From Verrucomicrobiota bacterium (GTDB taxonomy: Bacteria > Verrucomicrobiota > Verrucomicrobiia > JADLBR01): DNA of 34,240 nucleotides. Location of the stretch: positions 1 through 34,240 of the forward strand of contig JAKQKQ010000062.1 of assembly GCA_029560585.1 (NCBI GenBank), read 5' to 3'. The position numbers and the translations under genes are program-made. The notes under the pieces were generated by a model, which was not told where the DNA came from, made no database searches, and was given only the letters and a program-made list of their open reading frames with translations. This document shows positions 603-13,378 of this stretch, one piece after another (position 1 is the first letter of the stretch; each line of letters opens with the position of its first letter).

Positions 603-3600
603 ATGGAATCTCTCGGGTGGACCTTGCGGTCTAGGTGGTTGAGCGGGTGGTGTGTGGGGTTGGTGTTGGCGGGTGGGACTCCCGCGGCCATGGCGCAGTC
701 GTCGCGAGACACGGTTGTCGAACTGAATGCCGTGGTCCAGACGAACGCGCCCGTGATCACGCTGCAGTGGAACAGCGTGGCGGTGACCACGGCCCTTGAT
801 GTTTATCGGCGAGACAAGGGGGCCACGAGCTGGGGCACGGCCATCGCTGCGCTGGATTCAAATGTGACCTCGTTCGCCGATTCCAACGCTGTCACGGGTG
901 CTGTGTACGAGTACATGATTCGCCGGGCGCGATCCTCGGCTCCAACCGAGGCCTATGGAACGATCGTGGCGGGCTGCAACGTGCCGCTGGTGGAGGATCG
1001 CGGCCGGGCGCTGCTGATGGTGGATCAGTCGCTGCTGTTGTCGCTGGCACCGGAGGTCGATCGGCTGGAGCGAGACCTAGTGGGCGACGGTTGGACGGTG
1101 GTTCGGACCAACGTGGCGCGCATGGCGGTGGATCCGGCCTCGACCAATTCGGCGCAGTGGGCCGCGCGCCTTGCCGAGTTGCAGGCGGTGCGCGCCATCG
1201 TCCAGTCAAACTACGTGGCAGATACTAACCGCATCGGGTCGGTCTTCATACTGGGGCGTTTGCCGGTGCCGTATGCCGGGAACCTTAACCCTGATGGTCA
1301 CCCCGACCATCAGGGCTCATGGCCGGCAGATGCATACTATGCGGACGTGAATGGGACGTGGACCGACACGAGCGTCAACACGGTCAACAATTGGACGCAG
1401 CCTTCGGATCTCCGCAACCGGAACGTTCCCGGAGACGGGAAGTTCGATAACACCACGATCCCGACGACCTCTGAGCTGGCCGTCGGCAGGGTCGATTTTG
1501 CCAACATGACCAACGTGCCCACGGGCATGGGGGAGGTGGCGCTGCTCCGGCAGTATTTGAATAGGGACCACGCGTTCCGGCATGGGCGTGCGCCATACGC
1601 CAGCGTGCCGCGCCGGGCGCTGATCGACGACGGTTTCGGCTATTTCTATGGCGAGGCCTTCGCGGCATCGGGCTGGCGCAATGGCTTCACGTTCTTTGGG
1701 CGCGCCTCGACCAACGTGGTGGCCGCGGATTGGTTCGCGACGCTGGGGACAAACCAATATCTGCTGGGCTACGGCTGCGGGGGCGGATCTTACACCAGCG
1801 CCGGCGGCGTGGGGACATCAACCTATGACTTTGCGCGGAAGGACTCGCGCGCGGTGTTCACCATGCTGTTCGGAAGTTACTTCGGGGATTGGGACAAGAC
1901 GGACAACTTCTTGCGTTCGCCTCTGGCGGGGACTTCGGGCTCCATGGGCCTGACGTGCGCGTGGTCGGGTCGCGGCTATTTCCATTTTGACCACATGGCC
2001 ATGGGCGAGATGGCGGGCTATGGCATGTGGATAAGGTACAACGATCCCGTGTACCTGGTTTCCGGAGGCTGGGAGGGCAACGGTTATTCGAGGTACGTTC
2101 ACCACAACCTCATGGGTGACCCGACTCTGCGGCTACACACGGTGCCGCCGCCTCTCAAGCCCGCGGCGCAGGTGGCCACGAATCAGATTGCGCTGTCGTG
2201 GCAGGCCCCTTCCGATCCCACGATCGCCGGGTATCATGTGTACCGCGGGACGAATCCGGCTGGTCCGTTCACGCGGCTGACGGGTTCGGCCGCGACGCCG
2301 ACCGATCCCATGGGCTCGCCCATCGGCGCGACAACGTTTGCCGACAGCACCGTGGTCGCGGGAACGAACTACACCTACCTGATCAAGAGCATCCGTCTCG
2401 AGGGCAGCGCCAGCGGCACGTACGCGAACAGCAGCCAGGCGGCGGGGGTCAATGCGGCGGCGGTGGATGCGGGACTCGGGGCACCGGCCGCGCCAACCGG
2501 TCTGTTGGTCGTATTCCAAGGTGGCACCACCTACCAGCTGACATGGGAGGACAATGCGACGGGCGAGACCGGGTACGAGGTGCAGCGCCGGGATCCAGCT
2601 ACGGGCAACTGGTCCACGATCACGACGCTTGGGGCGGACAGCACCTCGCACAGCGACGGTGCGGCACCCTCCGGCGGGGTGGTCCACTACCGCGTTCGCG
2701 CCAATGGCGCATCGGCCAACTCGGCGTATTGCGAGGCCACCGCCGACCCGAATACGCCCGGGGTGCTTCGTCCGGTCGCCGACACCGTCTTCGCCAACAA
2801 GGCGACGCGAAAGGCCGTCATCGACGTGCTCAGATACAACGGTTCGGCCGGATCGGTCGGGGTGAACTATGCGACATCGGATGTTACCGCGACCAACGGC
2901 GTGGATTTCCTTTACGCATCGGGCTCGCTGTGGTGGGCGCACGGCGAGACGACGAATAAGACGGTCAATGTGACCCTCGGATATGTCGTGGCGCCGCAGC
3001 TGACGCGGATCTTCCGGTTCAATCTGAGCGGCGCAACAAACGGGGCGGGCGTGCAGACGCCGGGGTACAATTACGTGTTCATCTCCGACACCAACGCGCA
3101 ATCGATGCCCGCGCCATGGACCACGACAAACATCGGCGCGCTTTCGATCACGGGATACAGCGAACACGTCTCGGGCACCTTCGGCTCGACCTGCCGCTCC
3201 GGCGACATCGCCGGCACGTCGGACAACTACCGATCGATCCACCAGCAGGTTTCGGGTGATGTGCAGGTGACGTGCCGCGTGCCGAGTTTTCCGACGACAT
3301 TCCTCGGGAGCGCGAAGGCCGGCGTGATGATCCGGTCGAATATGAACGCCAATGCCGCGTGCGTGGCCGCACTGGTCGAGCCCGATGGCGCCGCACAATC
3401 CTTGTCGCGTGCGTCGGTGGGGGGGAATGCATCCACCCCGGGCACCGCGACCGGCGTGAAGTTCCCGTGCTGGTTGCGCGTGAGGCGGGCCGGCACCACC
3501 AACAACTGCTGGTATTCCACCAACGGCGCGTCGTGGATCGCACTTGGCGGCGCCACCGTCAACGCGGGCCTCGCCACGAATGCCTACGTCAGCCTCGGCG

Positions 3601-4370
3601 TCGCGGCCAACGGTACGTCGGGGTCGGAGTGGCCCGCCTACGCCCGATTTGACAGCGTGAGCCTCGTGACTCCGCCCGCGGTGCCTGAGCCATTGACCGC
3701 GGGATTCGGGGCCTCGACCGGCGAGGTGGCGCTCGCGTGGGCGTCGGTCTCAAATGCCACCGCCTACCGAATAGAGCGCTCGCTCGCGGAGGCCGGACCC
3801 TTCGCCGAGATCACGTCAGTCTCCCACCCGACCACCTCCTATGTGGATCCGGGCCTCGACCCCGCAACCACCTACTATTACCGCGTCCGCTCAGACAACG
3901 ACGCGTTTCAGTCGGCCTACACCACGGTGGCGAGTTCCAAACCCCGTCCCGGCGGAGTCGCCGGATGGAGGCTGGATCACTTCGGCTCACCGGACAACAT
4001 CGGCATCGGTGCCAACGAGGCGGATCCTGACGGCGACGGCCATCCCAATTTGGAGGAATATGCTTTCAAGACCGACCCGCTCGGCGCAACGAGCCGTCCG
4101 GTGTTTGTCCAAGAGTTGGTGCCGGGCGCCGGCATCGCCATCGGATTCGACCGCGATCCCGCGCTGGGCGACATTGACCTCATCGTCGAGAGTTCTGACG
4201 ACCTCGTCAGTTGGCGGACCGTCGCCCAGAGTCTGGTTGGCGGGGCCTGCACATCGACTGATTCCGGCTGGAGCGTTGGGGAGTCGGGCGCAGATCCCGT
4301 GCGGGTGCGCGTTAGCCAAAACGCCGCACAGCCACCCGAGTTCGTCCGCGTTCGCGTCGTGGCCCATTGA
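603..4370 (+). CDS. Secreted C25-like (gingipain-fold) multidomain protein with FN3, Calx-beta and DUF1349-like domains
   Basis: This is a 1255-residue exported protein. I chose the ATG at 603 because a signal peptide begins there (hydrophobic core about 13-27, cleavage after AMA at 31); ATG 594 is the alternative. Residues about 135-515 resemble caspase-clan peptidase family C25, with DAYYAD, GDGKFD and GRVDF motifs. Then follow two FN3 domains (about 517-610 and 630-720), a Calx-beta-like domain (720-820), a DUF1349/concanavalin-like domain (836-1025), a third FN3 (1027-1115), and a C-terminal domain with a calcium-loop-like DPDGDGHPNLEE (about 1140), a layout common in Verrucomicrobiota. 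By my alignment the gingipain catalytic His falls on Cys392 and the catalytic Cys on Ser425. It may therefore bind rather than cleave, or use different chemistry. The fold is likely; activity is unproven. Confidence 0.85.
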   Translation: MESLGWTLRSRWLSGWCVGLVLAGGTPAAMAQSSRDTVVELNAVVQTNAPVITLQWNSVAVTTALDVYRRDKGATSWGTAIAALDSNVTSFADSNAVTGAVYEYMIRRARSSAPTEAYGTIVAGCNVPLVEDRGRALLMVDQSLLLSLAPEVDRLERDLVGDGWTVVRTNVARMAVDPASTNSAQWAARLAELQAVRAIVQSNYVADTNRIGSVFILGRLPVPYAGNLNPDGHPDHQGSWPADAYYADVNGTWTDTSVNTVNNWTQPSDLRNRNVPGDGKFDNTTIPTTSELAVGRVDFANMTNVPTGMGEVALLRQYLNRDHAFRHGRAPYASVPRRALIDDGFGYFYGEAFAASGWRNGFTFFGRASTNVVAADWFATLGTNQYLLGYGCGGGSYTSAGGVGTSTYDFARKDSRAVFTMLFGSYFGDWDKTDNFLRSPLAGTSGSMGLTCAWSGRGYFHFDHMAMGEMAGYGMWIRYNDPVYLVSGGWEGNGYSRYVHHNLMGDPTLRLHTVPPPLKPAAQVATNQIALSWQAPSDPTIAGYHVYRGTNPAGPFTRLTGSAATPTDPMGSPIGATTFADSTVVAGTNYTYLIKSIRLEGSASGTYANSSQAAGVNAAAVDAGLGAPAAPTGLLVVFQGGTTYQLTWEDNATGETGYEVQRRDPATGNWSTITTLGADSTSHSDGAAPSGGVVHYRVRANGASANSAYCEATADPNTPGVLRPVADTVFANKATRKAVIDVLRYNGSAGSVGVNYATSDVTATNGVDFLYASGSLWWAHGETTNKTVNVTLGYVVAPQLTRIFRFNLSGATNGAGVQTPGYNYVFISDTNAQSMPAPWTTTNIGALSITGYSEHVSGTFGSTCRSGDIAGTSDNYRSIHQQVSGDVQVTCRVPSFPTTFLGSAKAGVMIRSNMNANAACVAALVEPDGAAQSLSRASVGGNASTPGTATGVKFPCWLRVRRAGTTNNCWYSTNGASWIALGGATVNAGLATNAYVSLGVAANGTSGSEWPAYARFDSVSLVTPPAVPEPLTAGFGASTGEVALAWASVSNATAYRIERSLAEAGPFAEITSVSHPTTSYVDPGLDPATTYYYRVRSDNDAFQSAYTTVASSKPRPGGVAGWRLDHFGSPDNIGIGANEADPDGDGHPNLEEYAFKTDPLGATSRPVFVQELVPGAGIAIGFDRDPALGDIDLIVESSDDLVSWRTVAQSLVGGACTSTDSGWSVGESGADPVRVRVSQNAAQPPEFVRVRVVAH

Positions 4371-4566: not shown

Positions 4567-4580
4567 GGCCTGAATTTTGT

Positions 4581-4610
4581 TTGAAACCGATGCGCTTGGG
4601 CGACTAATCT
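4581..4610 (+). promoter_or_regulatory. Putative sigma70-type promoter for the PEP-CTERM gene
   Basis: TTGAAA (4581-4586) and TAATCT (4605-4610) are separated by 18 bp. A start near 4617 would give a leader of about 56 nt that includes the strong GGAGGAG ribosome binding site at 4661-4667. A perfect TATAAT also lies at 4481-4486, but it has no recognisable -35 partner or extended -10. Confidence 0.4.
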
Positions 4611-4672
4611 TCAGGGTATTGGTTCGTGCCCGAATGCGTCGCCGTGGCGTGCTTGGGCGAGGAGGAGAAAGC

Positions 4673-7600
4673 ATGAGCAGGATAGGTTTTGTCGCGACGC
4701 GTGCGATCGCGTTGGTTCTCGGGTTCGTTTTTGGAGGCGCCACTTTGGCGTCGGCCCAAACGACGAACAGCTGGACCAACAACGTCGGTAACACCCTGTG
4801 GACGATTCCGGGCAACTGGTTGATCCTGACCAACAGCCCGAACGGTTGGGCGGGCACAAACATATATCCCGATGGCGGCGGCACCGTCGTGCTGATCACC
4901 AACAACATCGGCGGCCAGCGCATCATCTATCTGACCACCAACGTGACGATCGGCGAGATGTTCCTTGGCGATTGGGACCGGGGCAGCGATTTTCACATCC
5001 GCACGACCAACACCGTGGCCAACTCGATCACCTTTGACACGGGCGACTCCCGCCAGGCGCTCTTGCTCCATGGCTCCGGAGACCGGATCATGGATATCGG
5101 CAACGGTGGCGATGAAATCGACGTGGGCATCAGCGTGACCGACGCCGAGGGCCTCTTCGTGGACAACTGGCAGAACCTGGTCCTCAACGGGGCCATCAAC
5201 GGGGTCAGGGGGAGCGATCCGAACCGTGCGTTCGACGGCGGGGGCCACGACCTCACGAAGGGTGAGGACGGCGCCCTGTACTTCCGGAGGGTCTCCACCA
5301 ACATCGCCACGGTCTTCGTGCGCGACGGCGACCTGCGCTTTGAGATGGAGGGCGACCCCCTGCTCAAACCCGGCATCAGCAACGTGGTCATCGGCGTGGC
5401 CCCGGGCGTGGTGGACACGGGCGGGAACCCGGGCGGGGTCGTCACCAACCTGGGCGAGGGCGGGGCCTATGACCGCATCCAGTTCCCCCTCTTCACCGTC
5501 GTGGGGGCGAATTTAACCAATGCGGCCTTCGTCGGCCAGATCGCAACGAATGACTTCGACGTCACGATCAACCGCGGTGTGTTCCGCACATACAATCGCC
5601 CCCAGACCAATGGCCTGCCCCCGGTCTACAGCGGCACCTTCACCCTAAACGGCAACGCCAACGAGGTCTTCTTCTATACGGAGGGCCAGGACTTCGGGAA
5701 CATCTCCAGCACCGTCCAGCGGACCATCTTCACGGGCCCGATCACCGGAAGCGGCGGCTTCACGAAGATCGCCAGCGGCGAGATGACCCTCGTGGGCAGC
5801 AATGACTTCACCGGCTCGCTGAACATCAACCGTCCCTCCGACCGCGCGATCGGCAGATCGGGCGGCGTGCGCCTCATGGACAATGGCACGCTCTCCGGCG
5901 TTGGTGAGATCGTCCTCAACCGCAACGGCAATTTCTTCATCGACAACGACGCAATCAATCTCTCCAACCGGATCAACGACGCGGCCTCGATCATCGGCAG
6001 TGGCCGCAGCCACGTGGAATTCGTCGGGAACGCATCCGCGTCATCCTACGAGCGGGTTGGCGCAGTGACCTCGGCGGTGGGCTCCCTCACCTTTGAGTTC
6101 GACAAGAACAACGCGACCCCGCAGGCGCAGACGCTGGAGATCGGCAATCTCGTTCGGACGCCCGGCACCATCATGAATTTCGCAGCCAGCGACCTCCAGC
6201 AGGGCGCCTTCCTCAATAACGGCCCCTCCAACATTGTCATCAATGTCCTCGATGGCGGCGCTTCCCTCTTGCAGGTCGGTTCCGGCGGCGGCACCGGCAC
6301 GGTGAACCGCAGCGTCGCGATTGGCGTTTTCGGCGGTGATGGCGTTGATTTCAACGTGGATCCCACGACGCGGGACCCGAATCGCTCCGACGAATTCATG
6401 ACGGTGGACAACGGGCGCCTGCGCACCCTGGACCCCCTGACCGAGATGGTCTCGCTCGGTGGCCGCAGCACCAACGCGCTGAACATTACGCAGGCATCCG
6501 CCGCTTCGGACGCGAACGTCAACATCGATTTCCAATCGAAGGCGCCCGTCATCTCCCTCGGTAGCGTCGTCAACACCAACCTCATCGATAAGCGCGTCAC
6601 CGAAAGCGCCACCTTCAACAGCATCCGCTTTGGCATCGTGCCCGGTGCCGGGGCCAACGAAAACGGCCGTTCCCTTGTCATGGATGACGGGGTCAAACTG
6701 ACCTCCGAATCGGGGATGATCCTGCTGGGCCGCGACACCGGCAGCCCCACCGGTGACACCAACCCCGTCGGCACGGTGTGGCTCGTTGGTGGCACCCTTG
6801 ATCTCGACGGGACCAGCAACAACCGTGAGGGCATCATCCAGAACATGAGCGGCAACAGCCTCGTCCTGCGCAGCCAGATCGAGGCCAGCCAGGGCCTGAC
6901 CAAGGGTGGTTCCCAGCGCGTCTATCTCGACAACGACAACAACATCGGGGGCGTCGTCACCGTCGCCCAGGGCGAACTCCAGCTGCGTTCCAGCGGGGCC
7001 GTCCGCGGCGCCAGCGAGATCCGGCTAGCGGGTGATGGGGCGCTGATCCTCTCGGGCGGCATCTCGGTGACCAACGTCGACCTTCGCGTCACCGAGCGCG
7101 ACACCACGCGGACCACGCTGTTCAGCGAGGGCCAGCACAACGTCTTCGGCGGCGACATCCTCGTCGAGAACGTCGACCCGCAGGGCATGGTCTTGCACGA
7201 GGTGCGCATCGGCGCCGGCTCCAGCGCGCAGACCGCAACGCTCACCCTGCTGGGTGACATCGGCATCACGGTCACGACGAATATCATGTCGGACATCAAC
7301 CTGATCGACGCGCAGATCTTCGCGGTGCGCGACAGCGGCGGCATCATCAACCTCAGGGGGACGTTCGGCGACCGCCTCGTGAATGGCGAGGCCCTGCCAA
7401 TCGATCCTTCGGCCGTCGGCCAGAGCCGCCTGAGCGGCGGCTTCATGAGCAACCGCGCAGCCGACGAGAACCAGGTACTTCGGTTCCTCATCGATGCCCC
7501 CTCCCTCGCCGCCAACGGCGACGAACTGGTCGTGAACATCGACAGGTCGTGGAACGCCGCCGGCAGGTTCTACGCCGCGCAGGGAACCGTCCGGTTCACC

Positions 7601-10600
7601 GGCGATCCGACCCTCGGCCAGGGCGACTTTTGGACAACCAACGCCCTCGCGGCGTCGGATTTCTCCCACGGTTTCGGCGGCTTCCAGATGGGCGGGCTGG
7701 GTAGCGGCGAGAGCGATCGCAATAGCAGCACGACGCTTCTCCTCACGAGGGACGGCCAGTCCTTCAACGCCGAGCGGTGGACCGTCGCCAACGACAATAA
7801 CGGCGGCGACTTTACGGCGACCATGGGCCTGGAGCACTTCGGTCCGTCGAACTCCACCGTGACCATTGGCAACAACTGGAATGACATCAACCCGGGCACC
7901 GACGACAACCGGATCACGATCAATGGGACCGACGCCGCGCAGGTCCGCGAGTTCCGGCTCCTGTCGCACGACGGCTACGACTCGGCGACCGGAAGCAACA
8001 GCGTCGGCACCGTCAACGTCATCCAGAGCATCCGCGGCAACGACTTCTCGATCCTGACCACGGTGGGCAACGGCAGGGTGGTCTTGGGCGGACAGGCGGT
8101 GGCCAACACCAACTTCGACGAGGACAACGACATCCGCAACTTCATGCTGCTGGGTGGCGAGCTGGTGTTGGATCGGACCGACACCTACGCGCAGGGCGCG
8201 CGCCGGACGACCGGAAGCCGTGCCTCCCTGACCCTCGCGGGCGGCGATCTGACATACCTCGGGCGCGCTGGCGCCACCACGGAGATCCTGAACAGCAACC
8301 TGACGGTGCGGGCCGGCGACTCGCGGGTGTCGGTCGTGGCTGGCAGCGGCGGCCTGACGGAGCTGTACTTGGCCACCAACGCGAACGCGATCGTGACACG
8401 TCAGCGCGGTGGCACAGTGGGCTTTGTGGAGGACAGCACAGCGGGAGGCACCGCGAACATCCGGCTGGCGGGCACCGGGGTCACCGTGGGCCAGAGAGTC
8501 GGGTCTTGGGCGACGTACGGGACCAACTACGGGGGCGGGGCCTACACGTGGGCCGCGACCGACTCTCTGAGCAACGTGATCGAATTCGCCGAGGGCTTCT
8601 ATTCGGCGGACGCCTTCGGCGGCGGGCAGCACGTGACGCTGGAAACGCCCACGGCGTTCAACGCGGACGACGTGGCCGCGTCGCTGCGCTACACGAATGC
8701 GGCGGCGCTGGACCTCGGCGGGTTCTCCCTGAACGTGACGGAGGGCGGCATCCTGGTGACCCCGACGGTGGCGGGGGCGGCGTCGATGGGCAACGGCGCG
8801 CTGACCAGCTCGGGTGGCGAGTTGATCATCCACAACTACGCGGACCCGCTGGGGAGCCTGGCGATCTCGGCGGCGATCACGGGCAACGTGGACCTGACCT
8901 TCTCGGGTACCGGCAAGACGGTGTTGACGGGCGCCAACAGCTTCAACGGGGCGACCCGCATCAACGGCGGCACGGTGCAGATCGACGACGCCTCGCGCCT
9001 GGGCAGCACGGTGTCGAACCTCGAGCTGCGCGGCGGCATCCTCTTCACCACCGCGAGCATGACGTTCACCAACCGCACGATCATCCTCGGGGGCGACGGC
9101 GGCACCTTCCAGGTCGCGGCCGGCACCACGAACCTCGTGGGAACGATCCGCTCGGAGGACAACTTCCTCGATAACCTGCGTTTCAACAATGGCCACGGTG
9201 ACCTGATCAAGACCGGCACGGGTATCCTGGCGCTGGGTATCAACACCGGAGCATCCAATAACCTCACGGCCGGTTTCAACATGTACCAGGGGATGACCGA
9301 TGTCCGGGAGGGCACCCTCCTGATCGTGGGGACGAACAACTTTGCGCTGGGTTCCAACAAGTCGTTCTACGATGGCACGGTGGTCCGCGGCGGCGCGACC
9401 CTGACCCTCGGCAGCACCCCGACCACCCTTCTCGCCGTCGGCGTGACGAACACCTACAGCATCACGGAATGGATGACATTTGAACAGGGGTCGACCCTGC
9501 GGGTCGAGGATCCGGCGGGCGGCTACCAGAGCCCGAACATCAACGGCGTCGTTAACTTCGCCGGAGACACGACGGTCTTTGTGCAGGCCGACGAGTTCAA
9601 TTTCAACAGCACCGGCGCGGGGTACCTCATGGGCTCAGGCGACATCGTGAAGACCGGCGGCGGCGCGCTGCGCATCTACGAGAACAATATCGACTTCACC
9701 GGAGATCTCGTCATCCGGCAGGGGGACGTGCAGGACGTTGGCTACCGCAACTCCTCGATCCCGAATGTCGGCACGATCACCCTCGGCACCAATGGCACCA
9801 GCGACCCGGGCAACGTGGCGTTCCACGTCCGGTCCGAGCGGGATGGCATTGGCAGCGACTGGACAATCAATGCGGACATCGTCGCCCTCGGCAACAGCTC
9901 CGACATGCGCCTCGGTCTCCGTCGGCCGAACCACAATGACGTCGTGACCTTTGCGGGGGACATCGACCTCAGCCAGTTTGATCCGACGAACAACCTCCGG
10001 GAGTTTAGGCTGGAGATCATGGACTCCACCGACACGCGCGATGCGGTCGGTGGCACCGAGTACCGGGAGGAATATTATATGGTGCTCGCTGGCGACATCA
10101 CGGGCGGCAACAAGCGGATACGGACTTTCATGAGCCAGGAGGGCACGGCGAACTTTGACCTGGGCAACCAGGGGGCATCCAACCAGTTCGACATGATCGG
10201 GTTCTTTGATTTTAGGGGCACGAACACCGGCTGGACTGGCTCGCTGGAGGTGGGCAATCGCGCCGGTACCGGAAGCACCGATGGGCCGGACCGCGACAAG
10301 CAGCACTTCGTGAGATTCGGGAATAACGACGGTGCCGCGACGCTGGCGATCGGGGCGAGCAACAGCGTGGTGCTGCGGCACGACGCGACGCTGCAGGCCT
10401 ACGGCAGCCAGGTGACCATTGGCAACCTCTTCAGCGACGGCAACAGCGGCGGGGACGGCTACTTTGGCCAGCAGCTGGTGACCAACAGCTTCCTCGAGAA
10501 CGGCGGGACGGTGGCGGGCAGCTTCACGATCAACCAGACCTCCAACCGCACGTTCAACGCGGTGATCCGCGACGGGACGTACCACTCGCCGACGACCACG

Positions 10601-11272
10601 AATATTGCCTCCGCGGCGCTGAGCATCATCAAGGCCGGAAGCGGCATGCTGACCTTTGACCAGAGCAACTATTACACGGGGACAACGACGGTGCGCGGGG
10701 GGCTGCTGCAGGTCAACGGCAGCCACTTGGGCGGGGGCCTGTACTCGGTGCTGGCCGGCGGCTCGCTGGGCGGCACCGGCATCATCGGCTCCGCGGTGAG
10801 CGTGGCCGACGGCGGCACGCTGGCGCCGGGCGACCTGAACGCGGGGGCCGGCGGGACCCTGAACATCAACTCGGGGCTGGTGCTGTCCAACAACGCGATC
10901 CTGTCGTTTGACCTGGACGGCACGGACGGGACGGCGGGCGGCGGGATCAACGACCTGGTGCAGGGGATAGGCAACCTGGTGCTGGACGGGATGCTGACGA
11001 TCTCGCCGCTGGTGTCCTTCAGCGGGGCGGGGACCAACGACTTCTGGACGCTGATGACCTACAGCGGCTCGCTGACGGACAACACGCTTGTGGTGGACGG
11101 GGCCTCGCAGTCGCTGCTGGACCCTGGGCTGGCGTTCTTCGTGTACAACTTCGAGGGCGGTGCGATCGACGAGATCCGGCTGGGGATCATGGTGCCGGAG
11201 CCCTCGACCTGGGCGCTTCTGGCCACTGGCCTCGGCATGGTGGCCTGGATGGCGCGACGCCGCAGGCGATGA
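4673..11272 (+). CDS. Giant PEP-CTERM surface protein with autotransporter-associated beta-strand repeats
   Basis: This 2199-residue exported protein starts at ATG 4673, preceded by GGAGGAG at 4661-4667 and followed by a signal peptide (1-28, cleavage after ASA). The body is low in Cys and rich in Gly, Asn, Thr and Asp. It carries degenerate autotransporter-associated beta-strand repeats of the form K-x-G-x-G-x-L-x-L...F-x-G-x-x-x-h-x-x-G-x-L, for example near residues 360, 741, 1407, 1510, 1656 and 1983. This predicts a very long parallel beta-helix. The C-terminus is a textbook PEP-CTERM sorting signal: VPEPS at 2174-2178, a hydrophobic segment, then the basic tail ARRRRR. Such proteins are cut by an exosortase and often associate with exopolysaccharide; no exosortase is encoded here. 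There is no outer-membrane autotransporter barrel. The role is probably adhesion or matrix scaffolding (inferred). Confidence 0.93.
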   Translation: MSRIGFVATRAIALVLGFVFGGATLASAQTTNSWTNNVGNTLWTIPGNWLILTNSPNGWAGTNIYPDGGGTVVLITNNIGGQRIIYLTTNVTIGEMFLGDWDRGSDFHIRTTNTVANSITFDTGDSRQALLLHGSGDRIMDIGNGGDEIDVGISVTDAEGLFVDNWQNLVLNGAINGVRGSDPNRAFDGGGHDLTKGEDGALYFRRVSTNIATVFVRDGDLRFEMEGDPLLKPGISNVVIGVAPGVVDTGGNPGGVVTNLGEGGAYDRIQFPLFTVVGANLTNAAFVGQIATNDFDVTINRGVFRTYNRPQTNGLPPVYSGTFTLNGNANEVFFYTEGQDFGNISSTVQRTIFTGPITGSGGFTKIASGEMTLVGSNDFTGSLNINRPSDRAIGRSGGVRLMDNGTLSGVGEIVLNRNGNFFIDNDAINLSNRINDAASIIGSGRSHVEFVGNASASSYERVGAVTSAVGSLTFEFDKNNATPQAQTLEIGNLVRTPGTIMNFAASDLQQGAFLNNGPSNIVINVLDGGASLLQVGSGGGTGTVNRSVAIGVFGGDGVDFNVDPTTRDPNRSDEFMTVDNGRLRTLDPLTEMVSLGGRSTNALNITQASAASDANVNIDFQSKAPVISLGSVVNTNLIDKRVTESATFNSIRFGIVPGAGANENGRSLVMDDGVKLTSESGMILLGRDTGSPTGDTNPVGTVWLVGGTLDLDGTSNNREGIIQNMSGNSLVLRSQIEASQGLTKGGSQRVYLDNDNNIGGVVTVAQGELQLRSSGAVRGASEIRLAGDGALILSGGISVTNVDLRVTERDTTRTTLFSEGQHNVFGGDILVENVDPQGMVLHEVRIGAGSSAQTATLTLLGDIGITVTTNIMSDINLIDAQIFAVRDSGGIINLRGTFGDRLVNGEALPIDPSAVGQSRLSGGFMSNRAADENQVLRFLIDAPSLAANGDELVVNIDRSWNAAGRFYAAQGTVRFTGDPTLGQGDFWTTNALAASDFSHGFGGFQMGGLGSGESDRNSSTTLLLTRDGQSFNAERWTVANDNNGGDFTATMGLEHFGPSNSTVTIGNNWNDINPGTDDNRITINGTDAAQVREFRLLSHDGYDSATGSNSVGTVNVIQSIRGNDFSILTTVGNGRVVLGGQAVANTNFDEDNDIRNFMLLGGELVLDRTDTYAQGARRTTGSRASLTLAGGDLTYLGRAGATTEILNSNLTVRAGDSRVSVVAGSGGLTELYLATNANAIVTRQRGGTVGFVEDSTAGGTANIRLAGTGVTVGQRVGSWATYGTNYGGGAYTWAATDSLSNVIEFAEGFYSADAFGGGQHVTLETPTAFNADDVAASLRYTNAAALDLGGFSLNVTEGGILVTPTVAGAASMGNGALTSSGGELIIHNYADPLGSLAISAAITGNVDLTFSGTGKTVLTGANSFNGATRINGGTVQIDDASRLGSTVSNLELRGGILFTTASMTFTNRTIILGGDGGTFQVAAGTTNLVGTIRSEDNFLDNLRFNNGHGDLIKTGTGILALGINTGASNNLTAGFNMYQGMTDVREGTLLIVGTNNFALGSNKSFYDGTVVRGGATLTLGSTPTTLLAVGVTNTYSITEWMTFEQGSTLRVEDPAGGYQSPNINGVVNFAGDTTVFVQADEFNFNSTGAGYLMGSGDIVKTGGGALRIYENNIDFTGDLVIRQGDVQDVGYRNSSIPNVGTITLGTNGTSDPGNVAFHVRSERDGIGSDWTINADIVALGNSSDMRLGLRRPNHNDVVTFAGDIDLSQFDPTNNLREFRLEIMDSTDTRDAVGGTEYREEYYMVLAGDITGGNKRIRTFMSQEGTANFDLGNQGASNQFDMIGFFDFRGTNTGWTGSLEVGNRAGTGSTDGPDRDKQHFVRFGNNDGAATLAIGASNSVVLRHDATLQAYGSQVTIGNLFSDGNSGGDGYFGQQLVTNSFLENGGTVAGSFTINQTSNRTFNAVIRDGTYHSPTTTNIASAALSIIKAGSGMLTFDQSNYYTGTTTVRGGLLQVNGSHLGGGLYSVLAGGSLGGTGIIGSAVSVADGGTLAPGDLNAGAGGTLNINSGLVLSNNAILSFDLDGTDGTAGGGINDLVQGIGNLVLDGMLTISPLVSFSGAGTNDFWTLMTYSGSLTDNTLVVDGASQSLLDPGLAFFVYNFEGGAIDEIRLGIMVPEPSTWALLATGLGMVAWMARRRRR

Positions 11273-11692
11273 CTACCGGTTGAGAATCCCGCCCGCCACG
11301 CCGTCGCGACAGGCGCGGGAGGCACGCCGGCCTTGGCGTCCGCGGTCCACCCGTGTGCGTTAGTCGAAGTTCCGTGGCTCATGCCCTTTCGAAGGATGCG
11401 CCATGCGAGCATCCTGGGGAGGGCCCGCGGCCTCGCGGGCCGGGTTGGCCCGGGCGTTGCGCGGCTGGTGAATCGCGGACGCCGGGGACGGCGTCCCTCC
11501 TCCATTGGAGGCCGGAAAGTCCTCGGTGTTTTGATTCCTCTGGAATGTGGCAACGCGCCGAGGTGATCTGGATTGATCCGGATCAAGGGAGTTGCCGATT
11601 TCGCTGGTGCGCCGGGTCCGTGCGTCGCGACAATTCCCCGTGACAATCTGGATCGACATGGAGATTCACGGGTGAATGCGCGGAGATCTGCG
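11273..11692. other. Intergenic spacer between PEP-CTERM and porin genes
   Basis: This spacer of about 420 bp holds no gene I can support. Its left part contains a wide inverted repeat, TCCCGC (11287-11292) with GCGGGA (11315-11320), without a T-run. Its middle holds the hairpin cluster annotated at 11393-11511. The porin reading frame is open from TTG 11573, but 11573-11692 encodes nothing resembling a signal peptide and is treated as leader. Confidence 0.6.
11393..11511. repeat. Cluster of four hairpins
   Basis: Four inverted repeats lie in a row. AGGATGC/GCATCCT (11393-11415) has a 9-base loop. GGCCCGCG/CGCGGGCC (11422-11441) has perfect 8-bp GC-only arms around GCCT. GGACGCCG/CGGCGTCC (11477-11496) has perfect 8-bp arms around GGGA. 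CCTCC/GGAGG (11499-11511) encloses ATT. None has a downstream T-run on either strand, so they are not classical intrinsic terminators. They may block exonucleases or belong to dispersed palindromic repeat families of the kind seen at the left end of the window. Confidence 0.65.
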
Positions 11693-13378
11693 ATGGGCGC
11701 GATTGCCCGGGATTGGGTATCGGGACGAATTCGGGGCGCGCGGCAACGACTGTGGTGGGGGGCGCTCGCGTCGTTTTTCTTGGCGGTGGCGTCGGCCTTG
11801 GGTGGTGGCGGTGAACTGGAGCGCGGGATCGTCGCATCCGACATGCCGACGGGAGAACCCGCATGGAAACCGGGCGATCCCATACGGTGGCTTGGCGGGG
11901 CTCTGGGCGTAGACTTTCAGGCACGCGAACGATTTGAGTATCGCGAGAACTGGATCGATTTTAACGACGATTACGATCTTCGCGATGACGTCGGACTATT
12001 GCAGCGGTTGCGTTTCGGCCTGAAGATTCAACCGGCACCATGGCTCAGGGTGTATGGGCAACTTCAGGACTCCCGGACGTTTTTTGACGAGACCAACGGC
12101 GATCTCGGCGATCCATTTCGGGGGGTGCGGGCGTACTCGGCTTCGCCCGCGAACACACGGGAATTCGTGGTTCAGAATAGCTCGATAGACCTGAGGCAGG
12201 GTTGGGTGGAGTTCGGCGGTCTCGAAGACGGGCCATTCGCTTTCCGGGTGGGGAGACAGCTCCTCAGCTACGGCGACGAGAGGCTGATCGGCGGATTCGA
12301 GTGGGACAACAACGCGCGGACGTTCGATGCGGCGAAGGCGCAGTGGAAGTCCCGCGATTTTCAGATCGACGCATTTGCGGGCTGGGTCGTCTTACACAAG
12401 AATGATCGGTTCAACGACCCGGATACCGCCGATCTCTTGACCGGCATCTACTCGACTGTTCAGGCGGTTCCCAAACACCAGTTGGACGCATACCTGCTAT
12501 TCCGCAGCAAGTCGGACGTCGATTTTTCGACGGCGTTCAGCGATCGGCCGCAGCAGAACGGCGGCAATACCGCGCCCCCCGGTGATTACTTCACGCTCGG
12601 CTTCCGGGGGAAATCGAGGGAGGGGGAACTGGGGCCATGGGATTGGAACGGCGAGGTCGCGGTCCAGTGGGGGGATGTTGTCAACCCCCAGGGTTTCTAT
12701 CAGTTGGATCCCTCGACGGGGGAGTACGAGCCGGTGGATCGTATCGGATCGCGGACGATCAACGTCCTTCGACAAGACTTGCTCGCATGGGCGGCGCACC
12801 TGGAACTCGGGTATGCCCTCCGCTGCCCGTGGAAGCCGCGGTTTCACGCCGGGTACAGCTACGGATCCGGGGACGATAATCCATCCGATGGCGAGAGTGG
12901 CACGTTTCAAAACCTATTCCCGACGAACCACAAGTTCTACGGTTTCATGGATCGGTTCTCTTGGCAGAACATGCATGATCCCGAGGTGGGTGTGATGGTG
13001 AAGCCCACGCCGGCCTTGCAGATGACCCTCGACTATCACATGTTTTGGCTGGATGAGACCGAGGATGTCTGGCGATTCGCGGGCCAGGAGGCGGTGGGCG
13101 GCCAAGGGCGCTATGCGAACGCAATACTCGGGGGCACGCCAGTGCCCGAGACCGCGGTCTTGGGGAAGAACATTCTGCGGGGGGCGCCGAGCAGTTTCGT
13201 CGGGTCGGAATTGGATTTTGTGGTCGCATGGAAGGTGGCCAGATGGCTCAAGGTCGAGGGGGGATACTGCCACTTTTTTGCGGGTGATTACGTGCTCGAT
13301 AGCGCGGGTGTCCTTGGCGACAGGCGACGGGCCGATGACGCGCGTTTCGGATACGTGCAGATGCAGGTCGATTTCTAG
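11693..13378 (+). CDS. Alginate-export-family outer-membrane porin
   Basis: This 561-residue protein is predicted to form a beta-barrel channel in the outer membrane. I start it at ATG 11693 because GGAG (11682-11685) lies 7 bases upstream and a signal peptide follows (basic region to about residue 20, hydrophobic WWGALASFFLAVASA); GTG 11672 is the alternative. The mature part resembles the Alginate_exp family, with RERFEYRENW, LLQRLRFGLKIQP, the GRQLLSYGDERLIGGFEWDNNARTFDA region, and alternating amphipathic strands rich in Trp, Tyr and Phe. It ends in Phe, as expected for outer-membrane barrel assembly. Family members export alginate or take up small solutes and oligosaccharides, so the substrate cannot be read from sequence. 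It follows the PEP-CTERM gene on the same strand, 420 bp downstream. The stop codon overlaps a palindromic repeat. Confidence 0.85.
   Translation: MGAIARDWVSGRIRGARQRLWWGALASFFLAVASALGGGGELERGIVASDMPTGEPAWKPGDPIRWLGGALGVDFQARERFEYRENWIDFNDDYDLRDDVGLLQRLRFGLKIQPAPWLRVYGQLQDSRTFFDETNGDLGDPFRGVRAYSASPANTREFVVQNSSIDLRQGWVEFGGLEDGPFAFRVGRQLLSYGDERLIGGFEWDNNARTFDAAKAQWKSRDFQIDAFAGWVVLHKNDRFNDPDTADLLTGIYSTVQAVPKHQLDAYLLFRSKSDVDFSTAFSDRPQQNGGNTAPPGDYFTLGFRGKSREGELGPWDWNGEVAVQWGDVVNPQGFYQLDPSTGEYEPVDRIGSRTINVLRQDLLAWAAHLELGYALRCPWKPRFHAGYSYGSGDDNPSDGESGTFQNLFPTNHKFYGFMDRFSWQNMHDPEVGVMVKPTPALQMTLDYHMFWLDETEDVWRFAGQEAVGGQGRYANAILGGTPVPETAVLGKNILRGAPSSFVGSELDFVVAWKVARWLKVEGGYCHFFAGDYVLDSAGVLGDRRRADDARFGYVQMQVDF

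Follow-up and report, generated by a model that had tools for sequence, protein, structure and literature searches.

A cross-phylum clade of gingipain-like (C25) domains with serine in place of the catalytic cysteine, probably pseudopeptidases

Introduction

C25 peptidases of clan CD (gingipains R and K, PorU) are built from a two-subdomain unit. An acidic loop precedes an invariant Gly-Arg strand, the strands bearing the catalytic His and the nucleophile follow in fixed order, and a GDP motif, which is invariant in canonical members, closes the unit. The fold is caspase-like with a ten-stranded pseudo-continuous sheet, and the active peptidases cleave after Arg or Lys. In active members the catalytic His, followed by Gly, ends the third strand of the catalytic subdomain and the catalytic Cys ends the fourth. 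In RgpB, Asp103 and Glu107 lie at a Ca2+ site, and the strands of the N-terminal subdomain run antiparallel to those of the catalytic subdomain (PMC4357240). Kgp has a structural Ca2+ in its N-terminal subdomain too (PMC6426963).

Clan CD homologues without a catalytic dyad have precedents in the Tyr/Ser (YS) pseudo-orthocaspases and in T. brucei MC4, in which the clan CD fold is kept, Cys is exchanged for Ser and the His is lost; such proteins are widespread and presumed non-proteolytic (PMC6426788). Outside the clan, P. falciparum SERA5 carries Ser at the nucleophile position of a Cys protease and has an essential, non-enzymatic role (PMC4671257).

Here, a divergent C25-like domain is described which is encoded in a Verrucomicrobiota assembly (G000, contig C307), within a stretch of 34,240 nucleotides which was analysed as a whole and is called the window. 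A preliminary description, made from the sequence alone, had proposed that the His/Cys dyad of this domain was replaced by Cys392 and Ser425 at identical spacing.

Results

The open reading frame 603-4370, already delimited in the preliminary description, is intact and codes for 1255 amino acids, of which residues ~120-516 form the C25-like domain (Table 1). A same-genus orthologue (L044/L015) was found in a metagenome-assembled genome named Verrucomicrobiia. The Asp/Gly-rich C-terminal region (residues 1101-1246, positions 3903-4340) is also found in six or more further proteins encoded by this genome and is, judged by this recurrence, a shared C-terminal module.

Table 1. Features of the gene and its product in the window.
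Feature	Position	Strand	Basis
Gene, 1255-aa multidomain protein, predicted secreted	603..4370	+	Open frame; same-genus orthologue
Probable signal peptide, residues 1-31 (...AMA|Q)	603..695	+	Inferred from the translation by eye
N-terminal subdomain of the C25-like unit, residues ~122-328	966..1586	+	Pfam Peptidase_C25 on 192-297, E 0.0013
D231-G-H233	1293..1301	+	Asp and His invariant in Ser clade (67/67 each); motif missing from Cys clade
GDGKFD acidic loop (D278, D282)	1434..1448	+	D278 63/63, D282 63/64
C-terminal subdomain (caspase-like, formerly catalytic), residues ~329-516	1587..2150	+	Profile alignment, end to end, with intact-dyad relatives
Y390-G-C392-G393, segment where the catalytic His was lost	1770..1781	+	hhalign: His on G393; C392 variable
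Ser425, catalytic Cys position	1875..1877	+	Ser 67/67 in clade, Cys 5/5 in sister clade
GDPTLR motif, end of the C25-like unit	2115..2132	+	G505 67/67, D506 66/67
Fibronectin type III domain	2478..2714	+	Pfam
Calx-beta domain	2778..2978	+	Pfam 4e-7, above cut-off
Fibronectin type III domain	3684..3926	+	Pfam; PDB 3mpc match

When the full-length protein was searched against Pfam, no C25 match was obtained at reporting level and only FN3 and Calx-beta domains were named. Residues 120-516 alone reached 18.4 bits (E 0.0013) against Peptidase_C25 (PF01364), which is below the curated cut-off of 23 bits, and the match was confined to residues 192-297 in the N-terminal half. The family was therefore needed to confirm the assignment. 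Peptidase_C25 was matched by 28 of the 35 aligned family members, with a best E of 1.1e-7. In profile-profile comparisons, the family profile aligned end to end with the intact-dyad relatives (345 columns, prob 99.9, E 6.3e-34) and over 290 columns with three canonical C25 proteins of the same class (hhalign, E 1.3e-7). Five dyad-bearing relatives match Peptidase_C25 across much of its length, and the canonical C25 proteins of this class match RgpB, PorU and Kgp in the PDB. By these successive matches, the sequence comparison establishes descent of the domain from C25. The C25 assignment of the preliminary description is thereby upheld through the family, while the HMM search it suggested remained below threshold for the window domain taken singly. 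The Ser-clade profile gave no match to PDB sequences, and an AlphaFold2 model built with three sequences only (window, L044, L067) had a pLDDT of 31 and a pTM of 0.36. On its sequence, the domain is best filed as a member of C25 by descent and as a non-peptidase variant by its active site.

Ser425, the first residue of SYFGDW (425-430), is aligned with the catalytic Cys both by the family HMM and in two independent profile-profile alignments, as had been proposed. This column is Ser throughout the 67 distinct members of the family and Cys in all five proteins of the sister clade. Ser425 is encoded by 52 AGY and 16 TCN codons; since both Ser codon classes are used, the residue has been retained through codon changes which a neutral site would not show. 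In a scan of the window protein, residues 328-460 were free of His and residues 393-451 of Cys. The dyad is thus missing under any reasonable alignment, a stronger loss than originally claimed: by analogy with active C25 peptidases, the fourth strand of the former catalytic subdomain would end in Ser425, and the third without His-Gly.

The segment GYGCGGG does lie at residues 389-395, but the proposal that its Cys392 takes the place of the catalytic His did not hold. Both hhalign alignments set the His on Gly393, one residue past Cys392, and the Cys392 column contains C in 27 of 83 aligned rows and G, A, N, S, T, F, E or Y in the others. Two members, L024 and L081, read GHGCGGG, with His at column 390, two residues before Cys392; both are nested deep in the Ser clade, so this His is probably secondary. 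From these alignments, the His column can be placed within 390-393, no more finely. The 33-residue spacing which had been put forward as evidence is not diagnostic, given that true C25 dyads which were fetched are 31-42 residues apart and that the distance from 392 to 425 ranges from 23 to 50 residues across the Ser homologues. The suggested check for conservation in homologues hence confirmed Ser425 and spoke against Cys392, and with it the idea of a Cys/Ser dyad at identical spacing was abandoned. The only invariant polar residues in the former catalytic subdomain are Ser425 and the Asp and Arg of GDPTLR, so the lost general base has no conserved replacement there.

The N-terminal subdomain instead holds most of the invariant charged residues (D231, H233, D243, D255, D278, D282, R296 and D298); of these, D231, H233, D278 and D298 are for the most part confined to the Ser clade. 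Mean column entropy is 1.92 bits in the N-terminal versus 2.49 bits in the C-terminal subdomain. D278 and D282 precede the Gly-Arg strand, and their offset from the invariant Arg matches that of RgpB Asp103/Glu107; by analogy, the GDGKFD loop is likely to be a Ca2+ site like that in the N-terminal subdomain of gingipains. A Roseobacter homologue lacks most of the GDG loop, though D-x-H and Ser425 persist.

A domain search of 188 related genomes gave matches in 29. An alignment-based search of 388 Verrucomicrobiota genomes matched 33, of which 29 had Ser-type members, and this phylum-wide search also reached five distant proteins with His-Gly (or His-Ser) and Cys. In a maximum-likelihood tree, the 67 Ser proteins form one clade (bootstrap/SH-aLRT 100/99), the five dyad-bearing proteins are its sister (99/89) and the canonical C25 proteins lie outside; one Cys-to-Ser event would therefore suffice. 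The sister clade, also from Verrucomicrobiota (L094, L102, L103, L104, L105), shares with the Ser clade the end-to-end profile match and motifs such as WxD and the R...Y strand region. It differs in keeping SHG or CHS ... C and in lacking both Asp-x-His and D278. Homologues with a standard His and Cys, named beforehand as evidence against the replacement, were accordingly confined to this sister clade and the canonical C25 proteins. Three proteobacterial homologues on plasmids (Methylomagnum, Roseobacter) keep D231, H233 and S425; these genes (L151:11662-13572, L152:7662-9578 and L150:11659-13917) are annotated as ‘hypothetical protein’. A literature search, with subscription papers mostly outside its coverage, turned up no C25 clade that bears Ser; the Ser clade is apparently a large, undescribed family.

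Between the window protein and its same-genus orthologue, domain identity is 83-84%, dN is 0.13 and dS is 1.21. The resulting dN/dS of about 0.1 for this pair indicates purifying selection. Homology to a peptidase, loss of the catalytic residues and a gene under selection, which together define a pseudopeptidase, are all found at the sequence level.

Partner domains in Ser-clade proteins are Laminin_G_3, Ig, Calx-beta and Spherulin4. In one member (L019:382-3021) the domain is fused to Spherulin4 (E 4e-41), pointing to a carbohydrate-related context for this protein. The neighbours of the window gene encode a PEP-CTERM protein, an alginate-export porin and glycosyltransferases; downstream, at 4577-13378, a PEP-CTERM protein of 2231 amino acids with PATR (passenger-associated) repeats and an alginate-export-type porin (E 3.9e-62) were recognized. 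The Roseobacter genes are located in exosortase xrtD / VPLPA-CTERM / exopolysaccharide clusters, beside sulfate adenylyltransferase/APS kinase. Exosortases are found in 28 of 29 Ser-type genomes compared with 293 of 388 (Fisher p 0.003). Because genome size and relatedness confound this difference, it was kept out of the main argument. Lectin- and glycosidase-like partner domains together with exopolysaccharide and exosortase neighbourhoods weakly suggest a role of the Ser-clade protein in the matrix or at the cell surface.

Two canonical C25 domains with intact THG ... CSC are encoded in the genome of the window protein (L001:1501-2625 and L002:1501-2625). Among the samples searched, canonical C25 proteins co-occur in only a few Ser-carrying genomes (G000, G041, G065, G072). 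Since most carriers show none in these samples, the Ser-type domain seems to be independent of an active C25 partner, and an obligate partner of this kind was given less weight.

Discussion

The Ser-clade domain is probably a pseudopeptidase which is kept as a ligand-binding or scaffold module in multidomain secreted proteins, perhaps with a link to exopolysaccharide/exosortase functions. This is the simplest reading because neither His and Cys nor a conserved general base is present in the catalytic subdomain. Of the two options offered by the preliminary description, the pseudoprotease scaffold is the one best supported, given the clade-wide Cys-to-Ser exchange, the lost His and the missing replacement base; a changed active site in the form of Cys392/Ser425 is not. 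A C25 (gingipain-type) ancestor would have lost its dyad once, by exchange of Cys for Ser and loss of the catalytic His, and Ser was retained in all known descendants of this presumed dyad-less ancestor. With both His and Cys missing, peptide hydrolysis by the C25 mechanism should be impossible for the window domain. The old cleft and the newly conserved site of Asp231/His233 and the acidic loop, probably stabilized by Ca2+, may then bind a ligand, while the neighbouring FN3, Calx-beta and lectin-like domains would anchor the domain in the matrix or on the cell surface. As the ligand, a matrix polysaccharide or protein is hinted at by the partner domains and by the exopolysaccharide/exosortase neighbourhoods. 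Ser425 would be kept for its small polar side chain, needed in folding or in contact with the ligand, and not as a nucleophile. Both precedents differ in detail. The pseudo-orthocaspases belong to family C14 and have Tyr at the His column, which is variable in the Ser clade, and unlike them the Ser-clade domain is part of secreted multidomain proteins (PMC6426788). SERA5 has a papain fold and retains its own His (PMC4671257).

The main doubt about a pseudopeptidase is that an invariant Ser425 with a strictly co-occurring Asp-x-His would also be expected of a working active site. In a rewired serine hydrolase or transferase, Asp231-x-His233 would replace the lost His and activate Ser425, giving a Ser/His/Asp site in a caspase-type fold. 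That Asp231, His233 and Ser425 are each found in 67 of 67 members, that all three persist in Methylomagnum and Roseobacter and that the intact Cys clade is without Asp-x-His agrees with such an enzyme. However, the co-occurrence is explicable by one shared ancestor, the C25 catalytic site makes no use of the Asp-x-His loop and, by analogy with the antiparallel strands of RgpB (PMC4357240), this loop, which follows the third strand, should sit at an edge far from the nucleophile. Coevolution of H233 and S425 was not computable, as both columns are invariant. On balance, we regard a rewired enzyme as unlikely, and likewise improbable is its more specific form, a hydrolase or transferase linked to exopolysaccharide and exosortase functions with a Cys-to-Ser nucleophile and the base moved to the Asp-x-His of the other subdomain. 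If true, an Asp-x-His/Ser enzyme would resemble no known clan CD enzyme.

It is quite doubtful that the domain acts on active C25 peptidases of its own cell, as a decoy or a regulator. Regulation of active relatives is frequent among pseudoproteases (PMC6426788), and the genome of the window protein does encode two canonical C25 proteins with intact dyads, but most Ser-clade genomes lack any in the samples searched. Decay into a functionless former peptidase domain, which the weak C25 similarity and the higher column entropy of the former catalytic half might suggest, is very improbable and was rejected on the dN/dS value; the invariant residues common to 67 diverse members and the preservation of Ser across codon class switches also contradict it. 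Hardly any credence is left for a residual Cys392/Ser425 active site, which was rejected on the non-conservation of Cys392: the window protein shares this Cys with about a third of the aligned relatives, but others in which Ser425 is intact have G, A, N, S, T, F or Y instead, the alignments do not set it on the His column, and we know of no peptidase with Cys as general base for a Ser.

The gingipain relatives with Ser425 form a clade which spans phyla and in which the Cys-to-Ser exchange is fixed and an invariant Asp-x-His is new, beside a sister clade which keeps the dyad. The pair offers a clean system for the conversion of a secreted protease domain into a binding module, as we favour, or into a different enzyme. 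In Verrucomicrobiota, a Pfam C25 match which covers the N-terminal subdomain alone should not be taken to indicate an extracellular peptidase.

Two members stand apart by their genomic context. A paralogue in the genome of the window protein itself (L004, G000:C1:1933-3393), on a contig of 3.7 kb, is nearly identical to L028 from a genome of another family (G134), pointing to contamination of the assembly or to a recent transfer. Further scans of viral contigs for Ser-clade members yielded nothing beyond one viral-classed contig (IMGVR_UViG_3300032456_000517), on which the Ser-clade gene L067/L112 is located no more than a few kb from a gene for the terminase large subunit (phrog_15).
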